Origin: Streptomyces misionensis
Lineage (GTDB): Bacteria > Actinomycetota > Actinomycetes > Streptomycetales > Streptomycetaceae
Assembly: GCF_900104815.1 (NCBI RefSeq)
Contig: NZ_FNTD01000004.1
Span: forward strand, 2,930,501-2,994,500
DNA length: 64,000 nucleotides
Direction: 5' to 3'
The first letter of the stretch is position 1, and the number at the start of each line of letters is the position of its first letter. The translations under genes were made by a program, and so were the position numbers. Positions 13,903-34,462 of the stretch are shown here, piece by piece. Under the pieces are notes generated by a model. It was not told the origin of the DNA. It searched no databases and was given only the letters and a program-made list of their open reading frames with translations.

Positions 13903-13956
13903 TTGACGCCCCCTGCGCACCGGGCTTACGTTCGGCCGCAATAGGAAAGTTTCCTA
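13903..13956 (+). promoter_or_regulatory. csn operon promoter and CsnR-type operator
   Basis: TTGACG (13903-13908) and TACGTT (13927-13932) are 18 bp apart. The perfect palindrome TAGGAAAGTTTCCTA (13942-13956) lies just downstream of the expected transcription start. GGAAAGTTTCC-type palindromes are the operators of ROK repressors, including CsnR of S. lividans. The position suggests CsnR autorepression of the whole operon. Confidence 0.8.
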
Positions 13957-13980
13957 ACAGTGAGGCAGGTGTCGACCCCC

Positions 13981-15192
13981 ATGGCAGGAACCGCCGGTAC
14001 GCCGGGCACCCCGCGCGTGCTGCGCGCCATGAACGACCGGGCCGCACTCGATCTGCTGCTGGAGCACGGGCCGCTGACCCGGACCCGGATCGGCAATCTG
14101 ACGGGACTGTCCAAGCCCACCGCCTCCCAGCTGCTGGCCCGGCTGGAGGCGGCCGGGCTGGTACGGGTGACCGGGACCAGTGCCGGACGGCCGGGGCCCA
14201 GCGCCCAGCTCTACGCGGTGAACCCGCGCGCCGCCCACGCCGCCGGGCTCGACGTCACCCCGGACCGCATCCGCGCCGCCGTCGCCGACATCACCGGCCG
14301 CACGGTCGGCGAGTACGAGCTGCCCACCCCCGGCCGGCGCCCCGCGCAGCCCGTCGTACGGCAGGTCACCGACGCCCTCGACGGCGCCGTGAAGGCGGCC
14401 GGCCTCGCGCGCGGCGAGGTGCACCGGCTGGTCATCGGGACACCCGGCGCGTTCGACCCGAACACCGGGCGGCTGCGGTACGCCTCGCACCTGCCCGGCT
14501 GGCACTCCCCCACGCTGCTCGACGAGCTGGCCGCCGCGCTGCCGATGCCGGTCGAGTACGAGAACGACGTCAACCTCGTCGCCCTCGCCGAACAGCGGCT
14601 CGGCGCCACCCGCGGCCACGGGGACTTCGTGCTGCTGTGGAACGAGGAGGGCCTCGGCGCCGCCCTGGTGCTCGGCGGCCGGCTGCACCGCGGCTGGACC
14701 GGCGGCGCCGGCGAGGTCGGTTTCCTGCCGGTGCCGGGCGCGCCCCTGGTGCGGCAGGTGACCCGGGCCAACAGCGGCGGTTACCAGGAGCTGGCCGGCG
14801 CCCAGGAGGTGCCGAAGCTGGCCCGCGCGCTCGGCGTCCCCGACGTGCCGTCGGGGCCGTACACCGAGGTCGCCGCGGAGCTGCTGGCGCGCGCCGCCGA
14901 CCACGCGGGCGGGCCGCACCGGGCGCTGCTGGAGTCCTACGCGACCCGGCTCGCCACCGGTCTCGCCTCGCTGGTCTCGGTCCTCGATCCCGAGCTGGTC
15001 GTGCTCAGCGGCTCCGCGCTGACCGCCGGCGGCGAGGTGCTGCGCGCCCTCGTCCAGGCCGAGCTGGCGGAGCTGGCCGCGGCCCGCCCCCGGCTCGTCC
15101 TCGGTGACATCCGTGAACACCCGGTGCTGCGCGGTGCGTTGGAGGCCGCGCTCGCCACGACCCGCGACGAGGTGTTCGACACCTCGCGCTAG
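13981..15192 (+). CDS. csnR: ROK-family transcriptional repressor CsnR
   Basis: N-terminal winged helix (AALDLLLEHGPLTRTRIGNLTGLSKPTASQLLARLE) followed by the ROK sugar-kinase-like domain (HRLVIGTPGAF, YENDVNLVALAEQRLG, WTGGAGEVGFLPV). In S. coelicolor and S. lividans the homologue represses chitosanase and the chitosan-oligosaccharide uptake operon until glucosamine oligomers are present. The catalytic zinc site of ROK kinases is not evident, consistent with a regulator. Starts possible are ATG 13981, GTG 13969 and GTG 13960; I choose ATG, with GAGGCAGG 11 nt upstream. Confidence 0.85.
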   Translation: MAGTAGTPGTPRVLRAMNDRAALDLLLEHGPLTRTRIGNLTGLSKPTASQLLARLEAAGLVRVTGTSAGRPGPSAQLYAVNPRAAHAAGLDVTPDRIRAAVADITGRTVGEYELPTPGRRPAQPVVRQVTDALDGAVKAAGLARGEVHRLVIGTPGAFDPNTGRLRYASHLPGWHSPTLLDELAAALPMPVEYENDVNLVALAEQRLGATRGHGDFVLLWNEEGLGAALVLGGRLHRGWTGGAGEVGFLPVPGAPLVRQVTRANSGGYQELAGAQEVPKLARALGVPDVPSGPYTEVAAELLARAADHAGGPHRALLESYATRLATGLASLVSVLDPELVVLSGSALTAGGEVLRALVQAELAELAAARPRLVLGDIREHPVLRGALEAALATTRDEVFDTSR

Positions 15193-15237
15193 AGCACGCG
15201 TCCTCCCCTTCCCTACCCGCCCCCGGGAGACCTCGCC

Positions 15238-16581
15238 ATGCCCACAGCGACGCGCAGAGCCGGCGGACCAGCCGCGCTCGCCCTGACCGTCTCCGTCGTG
15301 CTGCTCGGCGCCGCGTGCACCGGGCAGTCCGGCGCGGGCGCCACGGACGACCCCACCAAGGACACGACCATCACCTTCTGGCACGCCTGGAGCGCGCCGA
15401 ACGAGGTCCGGGCCGTCACGTCCCTGGTCGCCGGCTTCGAGAAGGCGCACCCCAACATCCATGTGCGCGTCGTCGGCGACATGACCGACGACAAGATCAA
15501 CCAGGCGCTGCGCGCCGGTGGCGACCGGGCCCCCGACGTCGTCTCCTCGTTCACCACCAACAACGTGGGCAAGTTCTGCTCCTCGGGCGCGCTCGTCGAT
15601 CTGGACCCCTTCCTGAAGAAGGACGGCATCGACGCGGCCACGACCTTCCCCAGGGCGATGAACGAGTACACCCGGTTCGACGGGAACCGGTGCACCCTGC
15701 CGCTGCTCGGGGACGCGTACGGGCTGTACTACAACAAGACGGCGTTCCGGAAGGCCGGCATAGCCCGGCCGCCCAGGACCTGGAGCGAGTTCGAGGCCGA
15801 CGCCGAGAAGCTGACGATTCCGGCGGGGGACTCCTACCGGCAGCTCGGTTTCATGCCGGACTACCACGGCTGGGAGACCACCACCGAGCACTACCTCGCG
15901 CAGTTCTCCCCGACGTACTTCGACGCGAAGGGGAAGTCGCGGGTGGCCACCGACCCCGCCTTCCGGCAGGGGTTCGCGCTGCAGAAGCGGCTCGTGGACG
16001 AACTCGGCGGATTCCGGCGGCTGGAGCGGTTCCGGTCCACCCTCGGCGACGAGTGGGGCCCCAGGCACCCCTTCCACACCGGCCAGGTGGCCATGCAGCT
16101 GGACGGCGAGTGGCGGCTCGGCATGGCCGAGGCGGCCAAGCCGGACTTCGAGATCGGCGTCGCCCCGCTGCCCGTACCGGACGGCAGTGAGGACCAGTAC
16201 GGCAAGGGGTACATCACCGGCACCGTCACCGGCATCGCCGCCACCAGCCACCGGCAGAACGCCGCCTGGGAGTTCGTCAAGTACATCACCACGGACACGG
16301 ACGCCGTGGTCGGCTTCGCCAACGACATCCACAACGTGCCCTCCACCCTCGCCGCCCTCAAGTCCCCGAAGCTCAGGTACGAACCGCGTTTCAAGACCTT
16401 CCTGGACATCGCCGCGAACCCCCGCTCCACCACCACCCCGCCCTCCGTCAACGGCGGCCAGTACCTGGTGACCATCCAGCAGTTGGGCTACGACTACGAG
16501 AGCGGCAAGGTCGGGGATCTGCGCGCCGGTCTGAAGAAGGCGGCCGCGCAGATCGACACGGACATCGCGCAGGCGGAGTAG
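15238..16581 (+). CDS. csnE: Chitosan-oligosaccharide ABC transporter, solute-binding lipoprotein
   Basis: 447-aa family-1 extracellular binding protein. The N-terminus has a positively charged start and lipobox LLGAAC, so it is anchored as a lipoprotein on Cys27 or close to it. ITFWHAWSAPNEVRAV, WSEFEADAEKLT and GKGYITGTVTGIAATSH are typical for sugar-binding members. Start ATG 15238 follows GGGAG by 8 nt, 45 nt after csnR. The ligand assignment (glucosamine oligomers) rests on synteny with the S. coelicolor csnR-K operon. Confidence 0.85.
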   Translation: MPTATRRAGGPAALALTVSVVLLGAACTGQSGAGATDDPTKDTTITFWHAWSAPNEVRAVTSLVAGFEKAHPNIHVRVVGDMTDDKINQALRAGGDRAPDVVSSFTTNNVGKFCSSGALVDLDPFLKKDGIDAATTFPRAMNEYTRFDGNRCTLPLLGDAYGLYYNKTAFRKAGIARPPRTWSEFEADAEKLTIPAGDSYRQLGFMPDYHGWETTTEHYLAQFSPTYFDAKGKSRVATDPAFRQGFALQKRLVDELGGFRRLERFRSTLGDEWGPRHPFHTGQVAMQLDGEWRLGMAEAAKPDFEIGVAPLPVPDGSEDQYGKGYITGTVTGIAATSHRQNAAWEFVKYITTDTDAVVGFANDIHNVPSTLAALKSPKLRYEPRFKTFLDIAANPRSTTTPPSVNGGQYLVTIQQLGYDYESGKVGDLRAGLKKAAAQIDTDIAQAE

Positions 16582-20787: not shown

Positions 20788-21876
20788 GTGGAACACCAGC
20801 CCATATCCCGATGGCGCCGGGCCCGGCGCGCGGCCGCGGTCGGGCTCGGCGCGCTCGCGGTGCTCGTGGGGGTCACCGCCGGGACGGCGGCCCCCGCGAG
20901 CGCCGCCACCGCCGCCCCCGACCCGGCCCAGCTGACGGGCCTGACGCTGACCTCGGTGAGCAACGGCCGCGGTCTGGACGTGCAGAACGGCAACACCGGC
21001 GACGGCGTCTTCCTCGTCACCAACAGCGCGCCCGGCTACCACCAGAAGTGGAGCGCCAACCTGGGCACGGACGGCTCCTTCACCCTCGTCAACGACGCCA
21101 CCGGCAAGTGCGCCACCGCCGGGCTGCCGCTCACCCAGCAGCCCTGCGACGGCCGCGGCGGCGAGCGCTGGTACTTCCAGCCGGTGGCCGGCGGCTCCGG
21201 CGCCTTCATGGTCCGCAACACCCAGGACGACAAGTGCCTGGACGTCTGGTACAACGCGCAGTACAACGACGCCTGGACCGACACCTACGGCTGCAACAAC
21301 AGCCAGGCCCAGCAGTGGCGGCTGCCCGCGGGCGCCCAGGAGGCCGCCGTCGCGTCGGCCGTCGACCACGCGGCGGCCCGCTGCGTCAAGGACACCTCCA
21401 GCTGCTCCTGGCGCACCCGGGTCCAGGCCCCGGCCGCGCCGCTGCCGCAGCAGTGCGTCTCGCCCGTCTGGTACAACGGCACGACGGCGGCGGTGCCGTG
21501 GACGTTCTCCATGAAGCGCACCACCGGCTGGCAGTCCGAGCTGGGCTTCAGCCTCGGCACCGACCTCGGCACCGGCGGCGCGACCCCGGTCACCGCGAAG
21601 ATCAGCACGCAGATCAGCGGCAAGGTCACCCAGAGCCTGACCGACGAACTCGGCAACAGCCTCACCATCAGCGTGCCGCCGGCGCAGTACGGCTGGGTCG
21701 CCCTGTCGGAACTGGCGACGAAGGTCACCGGCACCTGGACCTTCGACGTCAACGGCTACCCCTGGACCGCCGACGACACCCTGACCGTCCCGCTGCTCAG
21801 CGACGACCAGGGCGGCGCCAGCATCTACCTGGCCCGGACCAGCGACACCTTCTCCGGCTGCGGCAGCGCTTCCTGA
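20788..21876 (+). CDS. Secreted ricin-type lectin with possible pore-forming C-terminal domain
   Basis: 362 aa. Signal peptide with an Arg-rich start and cleavage near APASA (residue 35). Residues 45-185 form a beta-trefoil ricin-B lectin with three W motifs (YHQKW, GERWYF, AQQWRL) and paired cysteines. Residues about 220-355 are beta-rich with long alternating Ser/Thr strands (KISTQISGKVTQSLTDELG), a pattern like aerolysin/ETX pore-forming proteins; this part is an inference. GTG 20788 follows GAAAGGAC. The gene lies 103 bp after csnK; the downstream hairpin suggests its own transcription unit or an operon tail. Confidence 0.75.
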   Translation: MEHQPISRWRRARRAAAVGLGALAVLVGVTAGTAAPASAATAAPDPAQLTGLTLTSVSNGRGLDVQNGNTGDGVFLVTNSAPGYHQKWSANLGTDGSFTLVNDATGKCATAGLPLTQQPCDGRGGERWYFQPVAGGSGAFMVRNTQDDKCLDVWYNAQYNDAWTDTYGCNNSQAQQWRLPAGAQEAAVASAVDHAAARCVKDTSSCSWRTRVQAPAAPLPQQCVSPVWYNGTTAAVPWTFSMKRTTGWQSELGFSLGTDLGTGGATPVTAKISTQISGKVTQSLTDELGNSLTISVPPAQYGWVALSELATKVTGTWTFDVNGYPWTADDTLTVPLLSDDQGGASIYLARTSDTFSGCGSAS

Positions 21877-22067: not shown

Positions 22068-23495
22068 GTGACACACCCGCCGCAGAGCGCGGCACCGCCC
22101 GTCGCGGGTCCCGCCGCGCCCGCCGCCCCCGGCATCCCCGCCCAGCCCGGCCCCCCGCTCCCGCCGCCCGCCCCGCCCGCGCGGCGTTCCGCGTTCGCCG
22201 AGGGCACCGACCGGCTGCGGGCCGCCGCGACCACCGAGCCGGGCCGGCTGCGGATCATCGGTGCCGTCCTCGCCCTGCTGGTCGTGGCGTTCGGCGCGGT
22301 CACCGCCTGGCAGTGCGACCAGCGCGCGTCCGCCGCCGACGACGTGCTGCACCGCAGCCAGCCCCTCAGCTCCGGCGCCGCCGACATCTACCGCTCGCTG
22401 GCCGACGCCAACACGGCCGCCTCCAGCGGCTTCCTGGCGGGCGGCGCGGAACCGGCCGCCACCCGTGACCGGTACGAGAAGGACATCAGCACCGCCGCCT
22501 CCGGCCTGGTGACCGCCGCCGCCAACGCCGAGCCCGGCTCCGCCTCCGAGGCCACCATCGCCCGGCTGAACCGGCTGCTGCCCGAGTACAAGGGCCTGAT
22601 CGAGCGGGCCCGCACCTACAACCGGCAGGGCTATCCGGTCGGCGGCGCCTATCTGCGCTACGCCAACGAGAAGATGCAGCAGGACATGCTCCCGGCCGCG
22701 GAGGACCTGTACACCCGGGAGAACGCCCGCCTGGACGCCGACTACGCGGACGCGACGCCGTACCCGTGGGCGGCCATCGCGCTCGGTGTGACCGCGCTCG
22801 CGGCGCTCGGCTGGGCCCAGCGCCGCGACTTCCTGCGCACCAACCGGGTCCTCAACCGCGGACTGGTGGCCGCCGGTTCCGCCACACTGGTCGCCCTGCT
22901 GTGGCTGACCGTCGGGCACACCGTCGCCCGGTCCGGCCTCGACGGCTCCTACGACCACGGCATCCGCTCCCTGACCGTCCTGCACGACGCCCGCATCGCC
23001 TCCCTGAAGGCGCGGGGCAACGAGAACCTGGGCCTGGTGGCGCGCGGCGCCGAGACCGTCACGGTCGACGGCGAGCAGTACGACGTCTACTACCACGACT
23101 TCGACAAGGACATGGCGGTGCTCGGCGAGGGACTGAGCCGGGCGGCCCGGCTCGCCGACGACTCGGGAGGCACCGCGCCCGTCAAGGCGGCCCAGGACAG
23201 CGCGGCGCTGTGGCGCCAGCGGCACACCGCGGCCCGCACCGACGACGAGAACGGCGACTACCAGCAGGCGCTGGACGAGGTGATCGGCGCCAAGGGCACC
23301 ACCGGGGAGTGCTTCGACGGTGTCGACGGCGACCTCGCCCGCGCGATCGGCCACGAACAGGGCGAGTTCCAGCGGGCCGCCACCGCCGGGCGGGACGCCA
23401 TGACCGGGCTGCCCGCCGGCGTGGCCGTGCTCGCCCTGCTCGGCGCGGCGGGCGCGCTCGCCGGGATCGGCCGCAGGCTTTCGGAGTACCGGTGA
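22068..23495 (+). CDS. glnX: GlnX-like four-helix membrane sensor
   Basis: 475 aa: Pro-rich cytosolic N-terminus, TM1 (RIIGAVLALLVVAFGAVTAW), an extracellular helical region (about 90-235), TM2 (WAAIALGVTALAALGW), a short loop, TM3 (GLVAAGSATLVALLWLTVG), a second extracellular helical region (about 290-440) and TM4 (PAGVAVLALLGAAGALAGIG). This layout matches GlnX, the partner of GlnH and PknG in mycobacterial aspartate/glutamate sensing. GTG 22068 has GGGGGAGG 4 nt upstream. The next gene overlaps or follows within 14 nt, as does a PknG-like kinase further on. Confidence 0.75.
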   Translation: MTHPPQSAAPPVAGPAAPAAPGIPAQPGPPLPPPAPPARRSAFAEGTDRLRAAATTEPGRLRIIGAVLALLVVAFGAVTAWQCDQRASAADDVLHRSQPLSSGAADIYRSLADANTAASSGFLAGGAEPAATRDRYEKDISTAASGLVTAAANAEPGSASEATIARLNRLLPEYKGLIERARTYNRQGYPVGGAYLRYANEKMQQDMLPAAEDLYTRENARLDADYADATPYPWAAIALGVTALAALGWAQRRDFLRTNRVLNRGLVAAGSATLVALLWLTVGHTVARSGLDGSYDHGIRSLTVLHDARIASLKARGNENLGLVARGAETVTVDGEQYDVYYHDFDKDMAVLGEGLSRAARLADDSGGTAPVKAAQDSAALWRQRHTAARTDDENGDYQQALDEVIGAKGTTGECFDGVDGDLARAIGHEQGEFQRAATAGRDAMTGLPAGVAVLALLGAAGALAGIGRRLSEYR

Positions 23496-23509
23496 GAAGG
23501 GGCGAGGCG

Positions 23510-24535
23510 ATGGGCGCGAGCCGGCTGCGCGGCTGGGGCGGCGTCGGCACGATGGCGGTCCTGTGCGCGCTGGCGCTGGCGTTCGTCCTGCTGCTGCCGC
23601 GCACCCTGGCCGCGCACCACCACCACGCGCCGGACCGGGCCGGGCAGCAGCTCGCCGAGGGCAGCCAGGTCCGCGCCGGCGCCTGCGAGGACGCCGAGGC
23701 GCAGAACCAGACGCTCGCCCCGTCCGGCGCGGACGGCCCCGCGATCGACGCCATCAAGGCCCGGCAGGGCGCCAAGCGCAAGCTGATCGTCGGCGTCGAC
23801 CAGAACAGCTACCGCTGGGGCTACCGCAACCCGAACACCGAGGGCGCCCGGCTGGAGGGCTTCGACATCGACCTGGTGCACCGCATCGCCCAGGACATCC
23901 TCGGCGACCCGGACGCGGTGCAGTTCAAGGCGATACCGACCAACCAGCGCATCCCGGCGATCCAGGACGGCCGGGTGGACATGGTGGTGCGCACCATGAC
24001 CATCACCTGCGACCGGCTCGGCCAGGTCGCGTTCTCCGCGCCGTACTTCAAGACCGGGCAGCAGGTCCTCGCCCCCAAGTCGTCCGCCGTCACCGGCTAC
24101 AACGGCTCGCTCACGGGCAAGAAGGTGTGCACGGCGGCCGGTTCGACGGCGTACGCGAAGCTGGCCGCCGACAAGAAGTCCGGGACGCTGCCCGCCTCCA
24201 CCGACATCTCCACCACGGTGCCCAACCAACTGGACTGCCTGGTGCGGCTCCAGCTCGGCGAGGCGGACGCGGTGGTCACCGACGGCGCCCTCGCCGCGAG
24301 CCAGGCCGCCCAGGACCCGACCGTGGAACTCAAGGGCGCGCCGTTCACGACCGAGTACTACGGAGTGGCGATGAAGAAGGACGCCACCGATCTGGTACGC
24401 CGGGTCAACCGGGTGCTGGTCGCCTACCGCGCGAGCGGCTGGCAGGCGTCGTACGACACATGGCTGTCGGCGACACTGGGAAGGGACTCCTCGGCCTCCA
24501 GGCCGCCCGCGCCGCAGTACCTGCGCACCAGTTGA
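23510..24535 (+). CDS. glnH: GlnH-like amino-acid-binding protein, membrane-anchored
   Basis: 341-aa bacterial solute-binding protein family 3. It has one N-terminal anchor (GVGTMAVLCALALAFVLLLP) with no lipobox, unlike the mycobacterial lipoprotein, then a His cluster (HHHH). The ligand fold contains KLIVGVDQNSYRWGYRNP, LEGFDIDLVHRIA and VDMVVRTMTITCDRLGQVAFS. No transporter permease is adjacent, so it should report to GlnX rather than feed uptake. The start is ATG 23510 (AAGGGG, 8 nt); GTG 23492 overlapping the upstream stop is an alternative. Confidence 0.78.
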   Translation: MGASRLRGWGGVGTMAVLCALALAFVLLLPRTLAAHHHHAPDRAGQQLAEGSQVRAGACEDAEAQNQTLAPSGADGPAIDAIKARQGAKRKLIVGVDQNSYRWGYRNPNTEGARLEGFDIDLVHRIAQDILGDPDAVQFKAIPTNQRIPAIQDGRVDMVVRTMTITCDRLGQVAFSAPYFKTGQQVLAPKSSAVTGYNGSLTGKKVCTAAGSTAYAKLAADKKSGTLPASTDISTTVPNQLDCLVRLQLGEADAVVTDGALAASQAAQDPTVELKGAPFTTEYYGVAMKKDATDLVRRVNRVLVAYRASGWQASYDTWLSATLGRDSSASRPPAPQYLRTS

Positions 24536-24576
24536 ACCGCAGCCGACCGGAACACACAGCAAGCGAGAGGTGATCG

Positions 24577-25851
24577 ATGGGCGTCACGGACCCCGCCGGG
24601 CCGGTGATGGACCGGGACGAGGTGGACCGTGCGCTGGCCCGGCTCGGCCAGGAGCACGAGGCCATCGAGACCTCCCTGCTCGCCCTCCAGGACCACGCGG
24701 GCCGCAGACTCCTGGAGGGCGCCGAACTGACCGGCGTCACCAAGGAGCGCTGGCAGGCGGCCGAGGCGCGGATCACCCTGCTGTGGACGTACTTCGACGC
24801 CTACACGGACGCGCTGCGCGGCGCCCGCGACATCCGCGCCCGGCGCCGCTGGTCCAGCCGCGAGGACCTGGCCGAGCTGACCGGACTGCTGCGCGGCACC
24901 TGCGTCGCGCTCCCCGGTCCGGGCGACGGCCGGCTCAGCGAGAGCTTCTCGCTGGCCGAGCTGGTGGACCGGATGAACGAGCTGTACGCGACCAGCCTGG
25001 ACCTGGTCGTCGCCGCCGACGCGGTCTGGTCGGCGCTGCCCGCGCGGATCGACCTGCTCGCCGCCGAACTCCAGCGCACCCGGCAGCTCGCGCACTCCGT
25101 CGGCGTCCGCCCCGGCGAGCACCCGGCCGGTGACGACCTGGAGCGGATCACCCGCACCCTGACCCGGCTGCGCGCCGACGTGGTCTCCGACCCGCTGGCC
25201 TTCTGGGTGCCCGCCGAGGGCAGTTCGGCGCCCGGCGGCGGCCGCCCCGACACCACGGTGTACGACCGAGAGGCGCGCGCCCTGGAGGACGTGCGGCGGG
25301 AGATCGACGCGGTGCTGACCGTGCGCCAGGACGCCGAGGCCCGGCTGATCCGGCTGCGGGACGTGCTCTCGCGCGCCGACCGCACCCTCGCCGAGGCCCG
25401 CACCGCGCGCGGCGAGGTGCTGGCGAAGATCGCCGCGACCGAGGTGCCGGTGGTCAGCGGCCCGCCGACCGTGCTCCAGGAGCAGCTGGCGACCGCGGCC
25501 GAGTACCGCAGGCAGGGCCAGTGGCACCGGCTGTCCCCGCTGCTGGAGTCCCTGGAGCGCAAGGCGGAGGAGGAACTGCTGCGGGCCCGCGAGCAGTTGA
25601 CCGCGGTGACCGCGCCGCTCGCGGTCCGTGCCGAGCTGCGCGGCCGGCTCGACGCCTACAAGGCCAAGGTGGCCCGGCACGGCCTGGCCGAGGACCCCTT
25701 CCTGGTGGAGCGGTACGACGCCGCGCGGCGGATGCTGTGGAGCGCGCCCTGCGATCTGCGGGTGGCCGGGCAGGCGGTGCTGCGCTACCAGCGGGCGGCG
25801 GCCGAACTGCTGGACGGGGCGCCGGAGGACCGCAGGGGGGAGCAGTCGTGA
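24577..25851 (+). CDS. Coiled-coil protein of the PknG cassette
   Basis: 424 aa, cytosolic, mostly helical with heptad-like stretches (ALEDVRREIDAVLTVRQDAEARLIRLRDVLSRAD and neighbouring segments, about residues 230-365). No enzyme motif. It overlaps the kinase start by 4 nt (GTGA), so it is translated with it. I do not recognise a named family; it may be an adaptor linking the membrane sensor to the kinase, which is inference from position only. Confidence 0.8.
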   Translation: MGVTDPAGPVMDRDEVDRALARLGQEHEAIETSLLALQDHAGRRLLEGAELTGVTKERWQAAEARITLLWTYFDAYTDALRGARDIRARRRWSSREDLAELTGLLRGTCVALPGPGDGRLSESFSLAELVDRMNELYATSLDLVVAADAVWSALPARIDLLAAELQRTRQLAHSVGVRPGEHPAGDDLERITRTLTRLRADVVSDPLAFWVPAEGSSAPGGGRPDTTVYDREARALEDVRREIDAVLTVRQDAEARLIRLRDVLSRADRTLAEARTARGEVLAKIAATEVPVVSGPPTVLQEQLATAAEYRRQGQWHRLSPLLESLERKAEEELLRAREQLTAVTAPLAVRAELRGRLDAYKAKVARHGLAEDPFLVERYDAARRMLWSAPCDLRVAGQAVLRYQRAAAELLDGAPEDRRGEQS

Positions 25852-28352
25852 GCGGGGCCGGTCGGGCCTGCCAGCGGCCGGGCTGCGCGGGGTCGTACGA
25901 GGACGTCGGCGGCGGCGAGCTGTACTGCGGCCTGTGCGGCCTGGCGCCCGTGGTGTCGGCCGGGGGTCCCGCCGCCGGGGCGGGGCCGGTCGGCTCGCCG
26001 CCCACCGGCGTGACCCGGGGCGCGGCCGGCGGCCGCGGCTCCGGCAGCGCCCCCAGCGCACGCACCTCCTCGCAGTCCGCCCGGTCGCGCCGTTCGGTCT
26101 CCGGGCGGCTGTCGCGCTCCCTGTCGGGCCGCTCCACCAGCCGCTCGGTGTCGGTGCGCAGCTCCGGCTCCTCCTCCGGCTCCTCCTCGGGGCGGGGCCG
26201 GCTGGGCGCGGGCCTGGTGGACGTGCCGCAGGTGCCGCGGCCCGACCCGCACACCATGGTGCTGGAGAATCCCGAGGTCCCCGAACGCAAACGGTTCTGC
26301 TCGCGCGCGGACTGCGGGGCGCCGGTCGGCCGGGCGCGGGGCGAACGGCCGGGCCGTACCGAGGGGTTCTGCACCAAGTGCGGGCACCCGTACTCCTTCG
26401 TGCCCAAGCTGAAGGCCGGGGACATCGTGCACGGCCAGTACGAGGTCGCCGGCTGCCTCGCGCACGGCGGTCTGGGCTGGATCTACCTCGCGGTGGACCG
26501 GGCCGTCTCCGACCGGTGGGTGGTGCTCAAGGGCCTGCTGGACACCGGGGACCAGGACGCGATGGCCGCCGCCATCTCCGAGCGGCGCTTCCTCGCGGAG
26601 ATCGAGCACGCCAACATCGTGCGGATCTACAACTTCGTGGAGCACCTGGACCAACGCACCGGCTCCCTCGACGGCTACATCGTCATGGAGTACCTGGGCG
26701 GCAAGTCCCTCAAGGAGATCGCCAACGCCCGCCGCACACCGGAGGGCAGACGCGATCCGCTGCCGGTGGAGCAGGCGTGCGCGTACGGCATCGAGGCGCT
26801 GGAGGCCCTCGGCCACCTGCACAGCCGCAACCTGCTGTACTGCGACTTCAAGGTCGACAACGCCATCCAGACCGGCGACCAGCTCAAGCTGATCGACATG
26901 GGCGCGGTGCGCCGCATGGACGACGACGAGTCCGCGATCTACGGCACGGTCGGCTACCAGGCGCCCGAGGTCGCCGAGGCCGGCCCCTCGGTCGCCAGCG
27001 ACCTGTACACCGTGGGCCGCACCCTGGCCGTGCTCACCTTCGACTTCCAGGGCTACACCACCGTCTACGCCGACTCGCTGCCCGACCCCGACACCATCGA
27101 GGTCTTCCGCCGCTACGAGTCCTTCTACCGGCTGCTGGTGCGCGCCACCGACCCCGACCCGGCCCGCCGCTTCGGCTCCGCCCAGGAGATGGCCGAGCAG
27201 CTGACGGGGGTGCTGCGCGAGGTCGTGGCCCTCCGGTCGGGGCAGGCCCGGCCCGCCCTGTCGACCCTGTTTGGCCCCGAAGTGCGGGTCGTCGACACGG
27301 AGTTGTTCCCCCCGCTCGCCGGGGACGTGTCGCGGCTGGGGGCGCGGGAGATGGGCGGGCGGGGCAGACGGCGCCCGCCGGCGGCGCCCGCGCCGCCCGT
27401 CTCCACTCTGGTGCGGCCGGTCGACGTCCCCGCCGCCGCGCTCGCGCTGCCGGTGCCGCTGGTCGATCCCGGTGACCCCGACGCGGGCTTCCTCGCGGGT
27501 CTGGTGGCCTCGGCGCCCGGTGAGCTGATCGGGGCGCTGGCGGCGGCGCCCGCGCGGTCCGTGGAGACACGGCTGCGGCAGGTGCGGGCCCGGCTGGAGA
27601 CCGGCGACCGGCACGGCGCGCTGGCCGGCCTGGCCGCGCTGGACGAGGAGCGGCCCGAGGACTGGCGGGTGGTCTGGTACCGCGGGGTGGCCGCCCTGGT
27701 CACCGGCGACTTCGAGGGCGCCGCCCTCGCCTTCGACGCGGTCTACGACGCCTTCCCCGGCGAGGCCGCGCCCAAGCTGGCGCTCGCCCTGTGCGCCGAG
27801 GTGCTGGGCCAGTTGGACAACGCGGCCGAGTACTACCACCTGGTGTGGGCCACCGACCTCAGCTATGTGAGCGCCGCGTTCGGACTCGCCCGGGTACGGC
27901 TCGCGACCGGGGACCGGCAGGGCGCGGTGCGCACCCTGGAGTCGGTGCCGGAGTCCTCCATCCACTACACGGCCGCCCGGGTCGCCGCGGTGCGGGCGCG
28001 GCTGAGACAGCGCACGGCGGGCGCGGGTGACGTACCGTTCCTGGACGACCTGACCGCCGCCGCCGGACAGGTCGAGGCCCTCCGGGCGTACGGTCTGGAC
28101 CCGGCGCGGCGCGAGTCGCTGTCGGCGGAAGTGCTCGGCTGCGCCCTGGACTGGATACTCTCCGGGGGCACGGACACCGCCCGGCCGGCCGCCGGCGGGC
28201 GGGTGCTGCTGGGCAGCGGACTGGACGAGCGGGGGCTGCGCTTCGGCCTGGAGCGCGCCTACCGCACGCTGGCCCGGCTGGCGCCCGGCGGCGAGGAGAG
28301 GAACGAACTGGTGGAACGGGCCAACCGTTACCGCCCCCGGACGTGGGTGTAG
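25848..28352 (+). CDS. pknG: PknG-like Ser/Thr protein kinase with zinc-ribbon and TPR regions
   Basis: 834 aa. A first Cys4 site (C8, C13, C27, C30), a Ser/Arg-rich disordered linker (about 60-120), a second Cys4 site (FCSRADC to FCTKC, about 150-177; the position of the PknG rubredoxin), then the kinase domain: glycine loop LAHGGLGWIY, Lys228 in VVLKG, catalytic Asp333 in YCDFK and metal-binding Asp350 in LIDMGAV. The kinase lacks the HRD arginine, as PknG does. TPR-like helices fill the C-terminal 330 residues. In mycobacteria PknG phosphorylates GarA to regulate glutamate metabolism. GTG 25848 overlaps the preceding stop. Confidence 0.88.
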   Translation: MSGAGRACQRPGCAGSYEDVGGGELYCGLCGLAPVVSAGGPAAGAGPVGSPPTGVTRGAAGGRGSGSAPSARTSSQSARSRRSVSGRLSRSLSGRSTSRSVSVRSSGSSSGSSSGRGRLGAGLVDVPQVPRPDPHTMVLENPEVPERKRFCSRADCGAPVGRARGERPGRTEGFCTKCGHPYSFVPKLKAGDIVHGQYEVAGCLAHGGLGWIYLAVDRAVSDRWVVLKGLLDTGDQDAMAAAISERRFLAEIEHANIVRIYNFVEHLDQRTGSLDGYIVMEYLGGKSLKEIANARRTPEGRRDPLPVEQACAYGIEALEALGHLHSRNLLYCDFKVDNAIQTGDQLKLIDMGAVRRMDDDESAIYGTVGYQAPEVAEAGPSVASDLYTVGRTLAVLTFDFQGYTTVYADSLPDPDTIEVFRRYESFYRLLVRATDPDPARRFGSAQEMAEQLTGVLREVVALRSGQARPALSTLFGPEVRVVDTELFPPLAGDVSRLGAREMGGRGRRRPPAAPAPPVSTLVRPVDVPAAALALPVPLVDPGDPDAGFLAGLVASAPGELIGALAAAPARSVETRLRQVRARLETGDRHGALAGLAALDEERPEDWRVVWYRGVAALVTGDFEGAALAFDAVYDAFPGEAAPKLALALCAEVLGQLDNAAEYYHLVWATDLSYVSAAFGLARVRLATGDRQGAVRTLESVPESSIHYTAARVAAVRARLRQRTAGAGDVPFLDDLTAAAGQVEALRAYGLDPARRESLSAEVLGCALDWILSGGTDTARPAAGGRVLLGSGLDERGLRFGLERAYRTLARLAPGGEERNELVERANRYRPRTWV

Positions 28353-28355
28353 TTG

Positions 28356-29729
28356 ATGTCGCAGAAGCCCCAGCAGGCCGCACCGGCCACGTGCCCGAGC
28401 TGCGCGGAGCCCGTCGAGCCGGGTGACCTCTTCTGTGGTGCGTGCGGGCACGACCTCTCGGTGGTGCCCGCCCCGCCGCAGGACCATCCGACGCTGACCA
28501 TGACCGGCTCCCCGGAGCCCGCGGCCCCCGCCACCGGGGAGGGTGTCCGGTGGCCCGCCCCCGAGCCGCCCGGCTCCGGCGCCACCCCGCCCGCGACGCA
28601 TCTGCCGACCGATCTGCCCGGCACCGACTCGGGCGGCCACCCGCTGCACCCCATGGAACCGGCCGCGCCACCCGCGCCCGCCGGACCGGCCACGTCCGGC
28701 GTCCGCCTGGACCGGCCGGCGGAACCGGAGGAGTACCCCTTGCAGGCACCGGACCCCCAGGCACCGAACGCGCGGACGGCCCAGGCCGGCCCGTCGCAGG
28801 AGCACCCGCAGCCCGTCCCGACCTGTGTCGCCTGCCGGGCCGGCCGCGTGGACAGCGACGGCTACTGCGAGCACTGCGGGCACGCCCAGCCCCGCGAACG
28901 CGACCACATGGAGCGGGAGTCGGGCCCGGTGGCCGCCGTCAGCGACCGCGGGCTGCGCCACCACCGCAACGAGGACGCCTTCACCGTCGGCCACACCGCG
29001 CTGCCCGACGGCACCCCGGCGGCCCTCGCCGTCGTCTGCGACGGCGTCTCCTCGGCCACCCGCCCCGACGAGGCGTCGGCCGCCGCCGCCCGGGCGGCCG
29101 GTGACACCCTGCTCGCCGCGCTGCCGCGCGGCACCCACCCGCAGGCGGCCATGCACGAGGCGATCGTCGCCGCCGCCCAGGCCGTCAACGCGCTCGCCGG
29201 GGAGCCGGACGCGGCCCGCGAGCACGACCCGCACCACAACGCCCCGGCCTGCACCATCGTCTCCGCCGTGGTCGCCGCCGGACTGCTGGTGGTCGGCTGG
29301 GTCGGCGACAGCCGCGCCTACTGGGTGCCGGACGACCGCGGCGCCCCGCCCGCCCGGCTGACCGAGGACGACTCCTGGGCCGCGCAGATGGTCGCCGCCG
29401 GGCTGATGAGCGAGGCCGAGGCGTACGCCGACGAACGGGCCCACGCCATCACCGGCTGGCTCGGCGCGGACGCCTACGAACTGGACCCGCACACCGCCTC
29501 GTTCAAGCCGGACCGGCCCGGTGTCGTGGTGGTGTGCACCGACGGGCTGTGGAACTACGCCGAGACGGCCGGGGAGATGGCCGAGACGATCCCGGCGGAC
29601 GCCGCCGTCCGCCCGCTGCACAGCGCCCGTGTCCTGGTCGGCCACGCCCTGGACGGCGGGGGCCACGACAACGTAACGGTGGCGGTCCTGCCGTTCCCGG
29701 CACCACCGCGGGGGGCAGGATCGGCCTGA
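28356..29729 (+). CDS. PP2C-family protein phosphatase with zinc ribbons
   Basis: 457 aa. Two zinc ribbons, CPSCAEPVEPGDLFCGACGH (about 10-29) and CVACRAGRVDSDGYCEHCGH (about 150-170), joined by a Pro-rich linker. Then the PPM domain: SDRGLRHHRNEDAF, VVCDGVSS, VVGWVGDSRAYW, VVVCTDGLWNY and GGHDNVTVAV; all metal-binding aspartates are present. Predicted to remove phosphates added by the adjacent kinase. ATG 28356 is 3 nt after the kinase stop (a TTG at 28353 is possible); no good Shine-Dalgarno, so coupling is likely. Confidence 0.88.
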   Translation: MSQKPQQAAPATCPSCAEPVEPGDLFCGACGHDLSVVPAPPQDHPTLTMTGSPEPAAPATGEGVRWPAPEPPGSGATPPATHLPTDLPGTDSGGHPLHPMEPAAPPAPAGPATSGVRLDRPAEPEEYPLQAPDPQAPNARTAQAGPSQEHPQPVPTCVACRAGRVDSDGYCEHCGHAQPRERDHMERESGPVAAVSDRGLRHHRNEDAFTVGHTALPDGTPAALAVVCDGVSSATRPDEASAAAARAAGDTLLAALPRGTHPQAAMHEAIVAAAQAVNALAGEPDAAREHDPHHNAPACTIVSAVVAAGLLVVGWVGDSRAYWVPDDRGAPPARLTEDDSWAAQMVAAGLMSEAEAYADERAHAITGWLGADAYELDPHTASFKPDRPGVVVVCTDGLWNYAETAGEMAETIPADAAVRPLHSARVLVGHALDGGGHDNVTVAVLPFPAPPRGAGSA

Positions 29730-29809
29730 GGCCACGGGCCGGAGGGGACCGGCCCGTACACAGCCATCGCCCGGCGTGAGCGGGGCGGTCGAGGGGGATT
29801 TGAGTCTGT

Positions 29810-31147
29810 ATGGCCAACTTCGCGAAACCTGATGTGCCGCGGTTCTCGGTGGACGTGTACCAGAACGAGTACCTGCCCGAGGGCGGCCGCGAGGTCAACG
29901 CCATCGTCACGGTGACGGCGACCGGCGGGGGCACGATCGGCAAGGGCCCGGGCGCCGCCGTTCCCGGACGGCGGCCGTCCGCCGCGGTGGCGCTCATGGT
30001 CGACTGCTCGGGCTCCATGGACTATCCGCCGACCAAGATGCGCCACGCCAGGGACGCCACGGCCGCCGCCGTCGAAACCCTGCGCGACGGCACGCACTTC
30101 GCGGTGATCGGCGGCACCCATGTGGCCACCGAGGTCTACCCGGGCGGCGGCCGGCTCGCCGTCGCCGGTCCGGCCACCCGGGAGGAGGCCAAGCGGGCGC
30201 TGCGCCGGCTGAGCGCGGGCGGCGGTACGGCCATCGGCACCTGGCTGCGGCTCGCCGACCGGCTGCTGGCCTCGGCGGACGTCACCCTGCGGCACGGCAT
30301 CCTGCTCACCGACGGCCGCAACGAGCACGAGTCGCCGGACGATCTGCGGGCCGCCCTGGACGCCTGCGCCGGACGGTTCACCTGTGACGCGCGGGGTGTG
30401 GGCACCGACTGGGAAGTGAAAGAAGTCACAGGCATCGCCTCGGCGCTCCTCGGCACCGCCGACATCGTCGCCGATCCGGCGGGCCTGGCCGCGGACTTCA
30501 CGCGGATGATGGAGACGGCGATGGACAAGGAGGTCGCCGACGTCGCCCTGCGGGTGTGGACGCCGGTCGGCACGGCCATCCGCTTCGTCAAGCAAGTCGC
30601 GCCCGCCGTCGCGGACTTGACCGGCAGACGCACCGAGGCCGGGCCCCGCGCGGGGGACTACCCCACCGGCTCCTGGGGCGACGAGTCCCGCGACTACCAC
30701 CTGTGCGTGGAGGTCCCGCCGGCCGGCCTGGGCCGGGAGATGCTGGCCGCCCGCGTCTCGCTGGTGGTGCCCCAACCGGACGGAACGGCACAGAACCTCG
30801 GCGCGCAGGGTCTCGTACGGGCGGTGTGGACCGACGACATGACGGCCTCCACCGCGATCAGCCCCCAAGTCGCCCACTACACCGGGCAGGCCGAACTGGC
30901 GCAAGTCATCAAGCAGGGGCTCGACCTTCGCAAAGTGGGCGATTTCGATGGAGCAACGGCCAAACTAGGACGGGCCGTTCAGCTGGCGAGCGCCTCCGGG
31001 AACGCGGATACTGCGAAACTGCTTGCGAAGGTGGTGGACGTGGTCGACGCCGCGACAGGTACTGTGCGGTTGAAGACGAGGGTCGCGGAGGCTGACGAGA
31101 TGACTCTGGAGACCCGGTCCACAAAAACTGTTCGTGTAAAGAAGTGA
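29810..31147 (+). CDS. VWA-domain protein of the PknG cassette
   Basis: 445 aa. The von Willebrand A domain (about 55-240) has the metal site DCSGSMD and the TDGR motif; a beta-rich region follows, then a helical C-terminal domain (GQAELAQVIKQGLDLRKVGDFDGATAKLGRA). The end, TLETRSTKTVRVKK, carries several threonines in a basic tail that could be a kinase target. No signal peptide. It is the second-last gene of the cassette, before the FHA protein. Confidence 0.85.
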   Translation: MANFAKPDVPRFSVDVYQNEYLPEGGREVNAIVTVTATGGGTIGKGPGAAVPGRRPSAAVALMVDCSGSMDYPPTKMRHARDATAAAVETLRDGTHFAVIGGTHVATEVYPGGGRLAVAGPATREEAKRALRRLSAGGGTAIGTWLRLADRLLASADVTLRHGILLTDGRNEHESPDDLRAALDACAGRFTCDARGVGTDWEVKEVTGIASALLGTADIVADPAGLAADFTRMMETAMDKEVADVALRVWTPVGTAIRFVKQVAPAVADLTGRRTEAGPRAGDYPTGSWGDESRDYHLCVEVPPAGLGREMLAARVSLVVPQPDGTAQNLGAQGLVRAVWTDDMTASTAISPQVAHYTGQAELAQVIKQGLDLRKVGDFDGATAKLGRAVQLASASGNADTAKLLAKVVDVVDAATGTVRLKTRVAEADEMTLETRSTKTVRVKK

Positions 31148-31205
31148 CCCTGGAAGCGACACCAGGCGAGCCAGCCCAGCCCTGAGACGAAGGGGAAGCC
31201 CCGAC

Positions 31206-32999
31206 ATGCCGACCTGCCCGAACGGACACCAGTCGGGTTCCGACGACTGGTGCGAGGTCTGCGGTCACCGCATGGCCGGTGCCGTGCCTCCGCCCCCGCC
31301 GCCCCCGCCGCCCGGCGGCTACGGCTTCCCGCCCCCGCAGGGCGGCCCGGCCGGTGCCCGGCCGCCCGCCGCGCCCGGCGGCGAGCCGGAGCTGTGCCCG
31401 CAGTGCCGTACCCCCCGCGAGGGCGGCGCGCCGTTCTGCGAGGAGTGCCGGTGGAACTTCCTGACCAACACGGCCACCTCGTACACCCCGGCGGCCCCGC
31501 GCCCCTCCACCCCCTCGACGCCCCGCTTCCAGCCGCCGAGTTCGACGTACGGCAGCGGTGACGGGTTCGAGTACCAGGGCTCGCGGCCCTCGCAGGTGAA
31601 CCGGCCGGCCGAGCCGATCCCGTCGTTCGGCAGCGAGCCGTCGGGGCCGACCCCGTTCGACCGCGGCACCCCGCCGGCCCCGCCGGCCAACCCCGGGCCG
31701 CCGGCCCCGCCCGCCTTCGGCAACGAGGGCCGTCCGTCCCCGTTCGGGGGCGGCCAGGGCGGTCCGTCCAGGCCCAACCCCTTCGGCGGCGACCGCGGTG
31801 GCCCGGCCGGTGGCCCCTCGGGCCCCGGCCAGGGACCCGGCCAGGGCCAGGGCGGCGGCTACGGCTACCCCCAGCCCGGCGCCGACCAGACCCCGTCCGC
31901 CTTCGACCGCCCGGGCCGGAACCAGGGCCAGGGCCCCGGCGGCCAGGACCAGAGCGGTGGTTACGGCTACCCGCAGCCCGGCGGCACCCAGGCCCCGCCC
32001 GCCTTCAACCGTCCGGGCCAGGGCCCGGGCGGCCCGGCCGGCGGCCCCTCCGTCCCCGGCCAGGGCCCCGGCAACCAGGGCCAGGGCGGCGGCTACGGCT
32101 ACCCCCAGCCCGGCGCCGACCAGACCCCGCCGAGCTTCGGCGGCGACCGCGGTCCGGGGCAGGGCCCCGGCGGCTTCGGCAACGGCCCCGGTCAGGGACC
32201 GGGCGGCCCCGCCGTCCCCACCCCCTTCGGCACCGACCCGTCCCGTCCCGTCCCGCCGCCGCCCGGCCCGACGCCGCCCGCCGGCCCCGGCGGCCAGGGG
32301 GGTCCCGGTGGTGCTCCGCAGGCGTTCTCGCCGTCCGGACCGCCCGCGCCGCCCGCCTTCCCGCGGGAGACCGGCCGTCCCCCGGCCGGTGGTCCCGGCG
32401 GCCCCGGCTCCGGCCCCTCCTTCGGCGGCGGCGAGGACGACTGGGTGATCTCCCCGCCCTCGTCCACCGGTCCCTCCGCGCCGGGCCAGGGCGGCGGCTA
32501 CGGCTACCCGCAGCCCGGCAGCGCCCAGGCCCCCGCCGGACCCGGCTTCCAGAAGGCCCCGGCCGGTCCCGCGTTCCCGGACGCGCCGGGCCAGGGCACC
32601 TGGACGGCGACCATCGGCCCGGACCGCGAGTACTTCATGGCGATGATGCAGCGCTCGGGCCCCGAGGCCACGGGCCTGAACCTGCCCGCCTACTCCCCCG
32701 AGCAGCAGCGCACCCTCACCGGTGACCAGGTGACGATCGGCCGCCGCCGGCACTCCACCGGCGACACCCCGGACATCGACCTCGCGGTGCCGCCGGAGGA
32801 CCCGGGCGTCTCGCACCAGCACGCGATGCTGGTGCAGCAGCCGGACGGCAGCTGGGCGGTGGTCGACCAGAACTCGACCAACGGCACCACGGTCAACATG
32901 TCGGAGGAGCCGATCCAGCCGTTCGTGCCGGTCCCGCTGCGGGACGGCGACCGGGTGCACGTGGGCGCCTGGACGACGATCACCGTCCGCCGGAGCTGA
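31206..32999 (+). CDS. Zinc-ribbon, Gly/Pro/Gln-rich repeat and FHA-domain protein
   Basis: 597 aa. Zinc ribbons CPNGHQSGSDDWCEVCGH (about 4-21) and CPQCRTPREGGAPFCEEC (about 66-83). Residues about 120-470 are disordered, with four copies of a GGYGYPQPG motif (near 220, 255, 300 and 430). The FHA domain (about 500-597) has TIGRRRHSTGD, SHQHAMLV and NSTNGTTVN, the phosphothreonine-binding loops. Expected to read phosphothreonine made by the cassette kinase. ATG 31206 lies 58 nt after the VWA stop. Confidence 0.88.
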   Translation: MPTCPNGHQSGSDDWCEVCGHRMAGAVPPPPPPPPPGGYGFPPPQGGPAGARPPAAPGGEPELCPQCRTPREGGAPFCEECRWNFLTNTATSYTPAAPRPSTPSTPRFQPPSSTYGSGDGFEYQGSRPSQVNRPAEPIPSFGSEPSGPTPFDRGTPPAPPANPGPPAPPAFGNEGRPSPFGGGQGGPSRPNPFGGDRGGPAGGPSGPGQGPGQGQGGGYGYPQPGADQTPSAFDRPGRNQGQGPGGQDQSGGYGYPQPGGTQAPPAFNRPGQGPGGPAGGPSVPGQGPGNQGQGGGYGYPQPGADQTPPSFGGDRGPGQGPGGFGNGPGQGPGGPAVPTPFGTDPSRPVPPPPGPTPPAGPGGQGGPGGAPQAFSPSGPPAPPAFPRETGRPPAGGPGGPGSGPSFGGGEDDWVISPPSSTGPSAPGQGGGYGYPQPGSAQAPAGPGFQKAPAGPAFPDAPGQGTWTATIGPDREYFMAMMQRSGPEATGLNLPAYSPEQQRTLTGDQVTIGRRRHSTGDTPDIDLAVPPEDPGVSHQHAMLVQQPDGSWAVVDQNSTNGTTVNMSEEPIQPFVPVPLRDGDRVHVGAWTTITVRRS

Positions 33000-33014: not shown

Positions 33015-33989
33015 TCACGGGAGGGGCCAGACGTACGGCCCCTCCGGGTCGTCCAGCCAGGCCCGGACGTGCTCGCCGGCGACCGTGACGCCGTACCGCT
33101 CGCGCTCCGGTTCGCCCTCGCGCTCCCACAGCGCCCAGGCGCCTCCCGGATCGAGGGCGCCGCGGGTCAGCGCCAGCAGGAAGTGGAACGAGTCCTGTTC
33201 GCGGGCCCGGCCCGGCAGCCCCGCGAGCGAGACGCCGTCCGGCTCGGCCCTGCCCTGACCGCGCAACGGCACGAAGTAGGCGGCCGTGGAAAGGAAACGG
33301 CCCTGCGCGTGCCGCGCGTCCCGCACGGTCAGCGCGAGCAGTCCGGTGGCCAGCGGGACCACGATCCGCGCACCGGGGCGGCACTGGGCGAGCCAGGCGC
33401 GCGGCACCGTGGACAGCGCGCAGGTGGCGATGATCCGGTCGAAGGGGGCGCGTTCGGGCACCCCGCGCGCCCCGTCCCCGGTGACGACCGCCGGGTGGTA
33501 CCCGGCGGCCGCCAGGTGCCGGCGCGCCGACTCGGTGATCTCCGGTTCCAGGTCGACGGTGGTGACGAGGCCGTCGTCGCCGAGCCGGTGGGCGAGCAGG
33601 GCCGCGTTGTAGCCGGTGCCCGCGCCCACTTCGAGCACCCGGTCCCCGTCCGCCACCCGCAGCGCGGCCAGCATCCGCGCCATCAGGGAGGGCTGGCTGC
33701 TGGAGGACAGCAGCTCGCCGTCGCGCAGCCGGGTGGCCAGCGGTACGTCCGCGTAGGCGCCGCGCACCCAGCGCTCCCGGTCCTGTGGGTCGGGGCTCTC
33801 GCCCCAGCGGCGTTCGTAGCCGCGCGGCCCGGTCACGTAGTAGTACGGCACGAACAGGTGCCGGGGCACCTCGGCGAACGCCTCCCGCCACCGCGGGTCC
33901 CGCGCGAAGGCGCCGTCGGCCTCGATCTCCCGCACCAGCGCGGCCCGCGCGGCGACGGCGAGCCCCTCGATCTCGTCGGCACCTGCCAT
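33015..33989 (-). CDS. Protein-L-isoaspartate O-methyltransferase-like methyltransferase
   Basis: 324 aa, SAM-dependent. VPRHLFVPYYY, the PCMT substrate loop SSSSQPSLMARMLAAL and motif I VLEVGAGTGYNAALLA are clear; ALSTVPRAWLAQCRPGARIVVPL follows. A 100-residue C-terminal extension is common in actinobacterial members. It may repair isoaspartyl residues or act on another substrate; some relatives modify peptide natural products, but no such genes are nearby. The stop is 16 nt from the convergent FHA gene stop. Confidence 0.82.
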   Translation of the reverse strand: MAGADEIEGLAVAARAALVREIEADGAFARDPRWREAFAEVPRHLFVPYYYVTGPRGYERRWGESPDPQDRERWVRGAYADVPLATRLRDGELLSSSSQPSLMARMLAALRVADGDRVLEVGAGTGYNAALLAHRLGDDGLVTTVDLEPEITESARRHLAAAGYHPAVVTGDGARGVPERAPFDRIIATCALSTVPRAWLAQCRPGARIVVPLATGLLALTVRDARHAQGRFLSTAAYFVPLRGQGRAEPDGVSLAGLPGRAREQDSFHFLLALTRGALDPGGAWALWEREGEPERERYGVTVAGEHVRAWLDDPEGPYVWPLP

Positions 33990-34057: not shown

Positions 34058-34462
34058 GTGAATGAGATTCGGCGCGGCACGCTTCAGGAGCAGACCTTCT
34101 ACGAGCAGGTCGGCGGGGAGGACACCTTCCGCCGGCTCGTCCACCGTTTCTACCAGGGAGTCGCCGAGGACCCGGAGCTGCGGGCGATGTACCCGGAGGA
34201 GGACCTGGGCCCCGCCGAGGAGCGGCTCACCCTCTTCCTCATGCAGTACTGGGGCGGCCCGACCACCTACGGCGAGCGCCGGGGCCACCCCCGGCTGCGG
34301 ATGCGGCACGCCCCCTTCGCGGTGGACCGGGCGGCGCACGACGCCTGGCTGCGGCACATGCGGGTGGCGGTGGACGAACTGGGCCTCTCCGAGGAGCACG
34401 AGCGGACCCTGTGGAACTACCTGACGTACGCGGCCGCCTCGATGATCAACACCGCGGGCTGA
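34058..34462 (+). CDS. glbO: Truncated haemoglobin, group II (trHbO)
   Basis: 134-aa haem protein. TFYEQVGGEDTFRRLVHRFYQGVAEDPELRAMYPEEDL, YWGGPTTYGERRGHPRLRMRHAPF with the proximal His, and the WG8-type Trp region of group II near DAWLRHM. Group II globins bind oxygen and NO and are linked to oxidative and nitrosative protection. GTG 34058 is used; start to start it is divergent from the PCMT gene with 68 bp between. Confidence 0.88.
   Translation: MNEIRRGTLQEQTFYEQVGGEDTFRRLVHRFYQGVAEDPELRAMYPEEDLGPAEERLTLFLMQYWGGPTTYGERRGHPRLRMRHAPFAVDRAAHDAWLRHMRVAVDELGLSEEHERTLWNYLTYAAASMINTAG

Follow-up and report, generated by a model that had tools for sequence, protein, structure and literature searches.

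The window analysed here is a stretch of 64,000 nt from Streptomyces misionensis, and its region 22068..32999 carries a cassette of seven genes, i.e., the sensor pair GlnX-GlnH, a coiled-coil protein, the kinase PknG, a PP2C phosphatase, a VWA protein and a zinc-ribbon/FHA protein. The gene set is real and conserved, and it extends the known PknG pathway. It is read as a five-gene core (coiled-coil, PknG, PP2C, VWA, and zinc-ribbon/FHA genes) with a movable GlnX-GlnH sensor. The new part is the joining of the PknG sensor-kinase to a putative VWA/FHA phospho-switch, which is known in outline from archaea. The locus may work as a self-contained, nutrient-responsive phospho-switch, a reading to which about even chances are given.

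Five-gene core and movable sensor

The seven open reading frames (ORFs) lie on one strand, at the positions where an initial annotation of the DNA had placed them (Table 1). Pfam and NCBIfam profiles confirmed the families of six of the seven proteins, the coiled-coil protein being the exception. Of the several 4-nt overlaps that had been described, two exist, i.e., GlnX/GlnH and coiled-coil/PknG. The other genes are spaced apart, by 3 nt between PknG and PP2C, 41 nt between GlnH and the coiled-coil gene, 80 nt between PP2C and VWA, and 58 nt between VWA and FHA. A sigma-70 promoter and terminator scan over the locus found nothing, which is a weak test in DNA of 75% GC.

The VWA protein was scanned against GTDB species genomes, and 577 relatives were obtained. 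The best 80 were taken, all but one labelled Streptomyces. Eighteen of these loci were too short for an order count, and the seven genes were found in the same order and strand in all 62 others (59 exact, 3 with one extra match). This near-relative conservation is a weak test, because the flanking genes are kept there too: in near-relative loci longer than 20 kb, the PCMT gene was kept in 60/60 and the globin gene in 59/60.

In a class sample of 148 genomes, PknG_TPR was detected in 40 and VWA_3_C in 29. Among 32 counted VWA_3_C matches, 25 were located within 6 kb of a PknG_TPR match, for which the rough expectation is 0.002 per match. This pairing count excludes two marginal VWA_3_C rows (genomes G132 and G100) as well as three PknG_TPR rows that fell short of the cut-off. 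Across 246 phylum-wide genomes, VWA_3_C was found in nine, eight of the window's genus and one (G321) of another class. The seven-gene set is not universal.

For 57 neighbourhoods, all six reading frames were searched; the profiles were derived from the Streptomyces genes and the first matches. All seven genes in the window order were found outside the genus at ten loci of three families, i.e., f11, f18, and f26 (Table 1). Judged by which named sequences their coiled-coil proteins match, family f18 corresponds to Frankiaceae, and Nocardiopsis belongs to f17. GlnX-GlnH stands before the core, after it, divergent from it, or is missing, and the locus is therefore read as a core plus a sensor. 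None of the six genes flanking the window cassette was shared by any of the 17 core-bearing loci outside the genus. The initial annotation had named a lack of synteny between the downstream genes and the kinase as a refutation; this was not borne out, since PknG is still accompanied by the core in other genera and by none of the flanking genes. Its suggestion of a write-erase-read system with its own sensor gains support from the composition kept in six families (f1, f11, f17, f18, f26, and f72).

Work on PknG has treated it as a metabolic kinase of mycobacteria and corynebacteria, with GarA/OdhI as the readout. In the class sample, 25/41 PknG matches outside the mycobacterial family adjoin a VWA gene of this kind, and many PknG kinases may thus have a substrate system so far unexplored in the open literature.

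Proposed phospho-switch

The metal-ion-dependent adhesion site (MIDAS) residues of the VWA protein, i.e., D65, S67, S69, T140, and D168, showed no variation among 22 aligned VWA proteins. Its C-terminal tail carries a conserved S-T-x-T motif. S437 and T440 were invariant in 30/30 counted PP2C-bearing loci, 13 of them from Streptomyces, and they are kept even in lineages where adjacent tail positions vary. Loci L085, L111, L121, L122, and L123, with short or degraded VWA frames, and L003, by row choice, were left out of this count. The homologous structure 4FX5 ends in the same tail motif.

The FHA protein has an N-terminal zinc site and the phosphothreonine-binding residues, as is expected of an ArnA-type partner. 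In an alignment of ten proteins, G512, S536, H539, and N559 of the FHA domain were invariant and R513 was kept in at least 90%. Tandem DNA repeats at window 31800-32291 encode the Gly/Tyr/Pro/Gln-rich linker of this protein (repeated GGYGYPQPG), and the linker length differs widely between families.

Hoffmann et al. (PMC6509490) describe a comparable module in Sulfolobus. They report that 4FX5 shares the tripartite fold of the ArnB paralogue vWA2, and that ArnA (zinc finger and FHA) binds the ArnB C-terminus, the site of the ArnB phosphosites. This interaction is nutrient-dependent and becomes weaker on nutrient limitation. According to PMC7472852, the kinase ArnC phosphorylates ArnB, and PP2A dissociates the ArnA-ArnB complex. 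The link of the window VWA protein to vWA2 is drawn from the published fold comparison, because the VWA profile matched vWA2 (5A8J) at E 0.85 only. By analogy, the ArnA-ArnB precedent fits the last two members of the cassette, i.e., the VWA and FHA proteins; the initial annotation had called the roles of the last three members unknown.

In PknG, the rubredoxin, kinase, and PknG_TPR domains were all above the Pfam cut-offs in one chain, and visual inspection of the alignment to 2PZI (residues 117-831) showed the catalytic residues to be retained. In a Streptomyces locus (L144, genome G133), the PknG reading frame is split, by sequencing error or in reality. The TPR domain of PknG is proposed to contact GlnX in PMC8546545. 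Three sensorless loci with a kinase are not at a contig end (L119, L120, and L123), and their kinases have no TPR domain; in kinases whose stretch also contains a sensor, the domain is preserved wholly or partly. This pattern agrees with the proposed TPR-GlnX contact. The TPR domain was kept where no GlnX was seen at L105, L108, L113, and L085, the last two being at contig ends.

On inspection by eye, PP2C seems to have its full set of metal-ion Asp residues. The coiled-coil protein gave no match in Pfam, NCBIfam, or PADLOC families. Its AlphaFold2 model, from an alignment of 108 rows, is confident and nearly all-helical (predicted local distance difference test, pLDDT, of 93.2), and no solved chain scored above the guide value for helical bundles. 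The invariant positions are mostly C-terminal, i.e., R351, L354, R355, G356, L387, and P391. A stretch including this C-terminal part is weakly common to the trypsin-like proteins of L003 (E 6e-5), L115 (3e-4), and L116 (2e-3). We infer that the coiled-coil protein is a scaffold.

The proposed switch would work as follows. GlnH would bind a small extracellular ligand, probably an amino acid, and would signal through GlnX to PknG via the TPR domain of the kinase, as published work on the mycobacterial and corynebacterial orthologues supports. PknG would phosphorylate Ser/Thr in the VWA C-terminal tail, and the zinc-ribbon/FHA protein would bind the phosphorylated tail, by analogy with ArnA and the ArnB C-terminus. 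Once assembled, the VWA-FHA pair may act on a target encoded outside the cassette, for which NAD-glutamate dehydrogenase is the best lead. PP2C would strip the phosphate and reset the switch. The coiled-coil protein would serve as a helical scaffold, and its translation would be coupled to that of the kinase.

Four proteins had been credited with Cys4 sites in the initial annotation, and such sites were found in three only, i.e., PknG (8-30 and 151-178), PP2C (13-30 and 157-174), and the FHA protein (64-81), which by eye has an additional C-H-C-C site at residues 4-19. No pattern like the extra N-terminal ribbon of PknG was seen in the mycobacterial-type rows. With three carriers, a shared metal or redox input is unsupported, and the ribbons are equally likely to be structural or docking elements.

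Sensor ligand and candidate outputs

GlnX scored above the cut-off of its NCBIfam subfamily NF058618 (Table 1) and below that of the equivalog NF041460, protein kinase G-activating (189.6 bits, cut-off 780). Cys25 of GlnH lies in the sequence VLC, a context at odds with the lipobox rule. The pocket positions of GlnH are given in M. tuberculosis numbering, i.e., R147, T162, S164, R169, W232, and D250, from PMC6069109, with 6H1U as the reference. R147, T162, R169, and D250 are kept in the window protein, S164 is changed to Thr, and W232 is changed to Gln. The W232 position was Trp in 9/9 mycobacterial-type and Gln in 19/19 Streptomyces GlnH proteins examined; in other lineages it was Tyr, Ile, Leu, His, or another residue. 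An Asp/Glu ligand is predicted for Actinomycetales in the same text (PMC6069109). The glutamate/aspartate input, which the initial annotation had carried over from mycobacteria, is not simply transferable: because the ligand-contacting Trp is replaced by Gln, Asp/Glu as the ligand of Streptomyces GlnH appears doubtful. GlnH likely binds an amino acid.

A GarA orthologue was found in the genome of the window (189.5 bits, just under the cut-off of 200), and its ETTS motif is present. Because the orthologue keeps ETTS, GarA is probably a parallel target of PknG, and the classical output may coexist with the switch. Glutamate dehydrogenase is among the GarA targets.

A 2316-aa open frame was found in locus L085 of family f27 (413-7363, minus strand). 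It is composed of FHA, then a STAND-like NTPase/TPR part, and then a complete NAD-glutamate dehydrogenase (Bac_GDH_CD 2e-229), and it adjoins VWA, PP2C, and PknG-like kinase genes. Apart from this fusion, another NAD-glutamate dehydrogenase is encoded separately in that genome. The fusion of an FHA domain to this enzyme is the reason for taking it as the best target lead. It suggests that the cassette FHA reader also acts on glutamate dehydrogenase, as a single case in which an assembly error is possible. According to PMC12321487, GarA restrains glutamate entry into the tricarboxylic acid (TCA) cycle.

It could be considered that the locus is an ordinary PknG-GarA metabolic operon, in which the TCA cycle and the use of glutamate are regulated by GlnX-GlnH-PknG through GarA, just as in mycobacteria. 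The four extra genes would then modulate this output or simply be neighbours, e.g., with PP2C dephosphorylating GarA. We regard this as unlikely. The GarA orthologue with ETTS in the same genome is in line with it, the sensor, kinase, and effector are conserved in Actinobacteria including Streptomyces according to PMC6069109, and the L085 fusion also points at glutamate metabolism; but the additional genes accompany PknG in different families where the flanks do not, sensorless core clusters exist (L119 and L120), and mycobacterial-type loci manage without the extras in 11/11 cases. Compared with GlnX-GlnH-PknG-GarA/OdhI of Mycobacterium and Corynebacterium, the sensor, transducer, and kinase are homologous and GarA with ETTS is encoded in the genome, whereas the window has four more genes, the extra N-terminal ribbon of PknG, Gln instead of the pocket Trp in GlnH, and a GlnX below the equivalog cut-off.

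Several points weigh against the phospho-switch. According to PMC6509490, Ala changes of ArnB phosphosite pairs left the function intact, and also the binding where it was tested. The E value of 0.85 to 5A8J counts in the same direction. The tail and the reader do not always occur together: L115, L116, and L117 have the S-T-x-T tail and no FHA match, L102 and L090 have FHA and no tail motif, and both are absent from L003 and L091. Frankiaceae is the source of all three TPR-less kinases, which may represent one event, and L085, a core locus with no sensor in its stretch (cut by the contig end), keeps the TPR domain. Among 246 genomes of the class, 60 gave an FHA-reader match, and the FHA-glutamate dehydrogenase fusion was found in one of these. 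In the open literature, no experiment on any cassette protein was found.

Related systems and the mycobacterial operon

The ArnA-ArnB module with the ArnC/ArnD kinases and PP2A resembles the cassette, in the portions of the sources seen, by its zinc-finger/FHA and VWA proteins, Ser/Thr kinase, phosphatase, and nutrient input, and probably by the VWA fold, through 4FX5; the C-terminus is phosphorylated in ArnB and is only a predicted acceptor in the window VWA protein. It differs in being archaeal and in having no significant match of the VWA profile to 5A8J, and a sensor pair or coiled-coil partner is unmentioned in those portions. PP2A belongs to a different phosphatase family from PP2C. By this likeness, archaeal ArnA-ArnB signalling is linked to a bacterial operon with known input proteins, and 4FX5 gains a genetic context and a candidate partner. 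The kinase, phosphatase, candidate substrate, reader, and sensor stand in one set, which is suited to rebuilding and assay in a laboratory Streptomyces. No description of the PknG/VWA/FHA combination was found in the open literature searched.

The same parts, i.e., an outside sensor, the kinase PpkA with a vWA domain, the PP2C PppA, and an FHA reader, constitute the threonine phosphorylation pathway of the type VI secretion system (T6SS; TagQRST-PpkA-PppA-Fha) according to PMC6082577, PMC1262709, and PMC3953482. A functional parallel, with the FHA protein governing how a membrane or secretion machine is put together, is nevertheless quite improbable. No T6SS structural or other secretion genes were found among the 13 genes scanned with Pfam (the seven and six neighbours), and vWA is fused to the kinase in T6SS, whereas it is a separate protein in the cassette.

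The nearest described combination, from Kaur et al. 2020 (PMC7159879), is the GAP1-N2 kinase-PP2C-vWA theme, where a zinc-ribbon kinase, PP2C, and a standalone vWA adjoin GAP1-N2 genes in actinobacteria. PknG is named nowhere in that paper (0 occurrences), and the sensor pair and coiled-coil protein of the window cassette set it apart from the theme. A conflict or envelope-assault response of this kind, with the core detecting damage and then releasing an effector, has a low probability in our view. The second PknG-VWA locus of the genome holds a trypsin-like protein with a weak coiled-coil match and the L085 fusion includes a STAND-like NTPase, which would suit such a response. However, PADLOC gave generic kinase matches and one weak PP2C match, the Pfam scan detected no effector domain in the seven genes, and the same PCMT gene adjoins the cassette in 60/60 Streptomyces-type loci, unlike in typical defence loci.

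The window genome has two PknG genes and two relatives of the cassette VWA gene (E <= 0.001), forming two adjacent pairs. The second PknG cassette, L003, is placed at 7203-15744 of its stretch (C4:6323203-6331744 of the same genome) and is rearranged. It contains the trypsin-like protein (weak coiled-coil match), PknG and VWA paralogues, a GlnX-like protein (62.5 bits), and a family-1 solute-binding protein. L115-L117 of other Streptomyces and L091 resemble it. L003 suggests that the sensor class is exchangeable.

The PknG loci of family f4 (n = 11) showed GlnX-GlnH adjoining in nine and PknG alone in two; coiled-coil, PP2C, VWA, and FHA genes were found in 0/11, in stretches of ~18-19 kb. Family f4 was taken as mycobacterial because one of its PknGs scored 1279 bits to 2PZI, a mycobacterial PknG structure. 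A PknG tree of 51 rows was rooted on the TPR-less kinases, with L144 left out for its split kinase frame. The f4 clade (100/100) was nested among core-bearing PknGs, and loss of the core in mycobacteria is therefore favoured. The opposite reading would follow if the root were placed on the f4 branch; the forks around this clade had 80-91% bootstrap, and there are several long branches. It is conceivable, as a view that we consider less likely than not, that PknG in actinobacteria was originally partnered with a VWA/FHA phospho-switch that had a scaffold and a phosphatase of its own, an exchangeable extracellular sensor, and an output including glutamate dehydrogenase. The mycobacterial three-gene operon, with its GarA role, would then be a remnant after loss of the switch, and the VWA-FHA switch logic would be common to bacteria and archaea.

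Table 1. Features of the seven-gene cassette, its neighbours in the window, and arrangements at other loci (L, locus; f, family)
Feature	Position in window	Strand	Evidence or arrangement
GlnX membrane sensor-transducer, 475 aa, GTG start	22068..23495	+	NCBIfam NF058618 484 bits (cut-off 250)
GlnH extracytoplasmic solute-binding protein, 347 aa	23492..24535	+	SBP_bac_3 1.4e-26; best solved relative GlnH 6H1U 6.9e-44
Coiled-coil protein, all-helical, 424 aa, proposed scaffold	24577..25851	+	AlphaFold2 mean pLDDT 93.2
PknG kinase, 834 aa	25848..28352	+	PknG_rubred, Pkinase, PknG_TPR; 2PZI 3.1e-169 over 117-831
PknG extra N-terminal Cys4 ribbon, residues 8-30	25869..25937	+	Cys pattern
PknG rubredoxin-like Cys4 site, residues 151-178	26298..26381	+	Pfam and Cys pattern
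PknG TPR domain, residues 525-832, likely GlnX docking surface per publication	27420..28343	+	PknG_TPR 8.6e-90; PMC8546545
PP2C phosphatase, 457 aa, two N-terminal zinc ribbons	28356..29729	+	PP2C_2 2.8e-13; Cys sites 13-30, 157-174
VWA protein, 445 aa, complete MIDAS and VWA_3_C domain	29810..31147	+	VWA_3_C 3.2e-22; 4FX5 4e-133 over residues 7-445
VWA C-terminal Ser/Thr tail, residues 433-445, LETRSTKTVRVKK, proposed phospho-acceptor	31106..31144	+	S437/T440 conservation
Zinc-ribbon/low-complexity linker/FHA protein, 597 aa, proposed reader	31206..32999	+	FHA 9.8e-15
FHA domain, residues 509-587	32730..32966	+	Pfam profile
PCMT methyltransferase gene, cassette neighbour	33015-33989	-	kept in near-relative loci (see text)
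Bacterial globin gene, cassette neighbour	34058-34462	+	kept in near-relative loci (see text)
f11: L084			all seven genes, window order
f18: L086, L092, L097, L098, L101			all seven, window order; L098 coiled-coil split over two frames
f26: L088, L103, L146, L147			all seven, window order
f17: L089, L096, L111			all seven, GlnX-GlnH moved 3' of FHA; L111 VWA match weak
L100			no detectable coiled-coil gene
L112, L113			part of set only
L094 (f18)			only GlnX-GlnH-PknG-PP2C
L135, another class			five-gene core divergent from GlnX-GlnH
L119, L120			complete core, sensor missing
L118, L121, L122, L123			partial core, sensor missing
L087, L093, L095, L099 (Frankiaceae PknG paralogues)			GlnX-GlnH beside kinase, no core

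Just upstream of glnX, a gene for a ricin-type lectin-domain protein was located at window 20788-21876, and it was present in 2/60 near-relative loci only.

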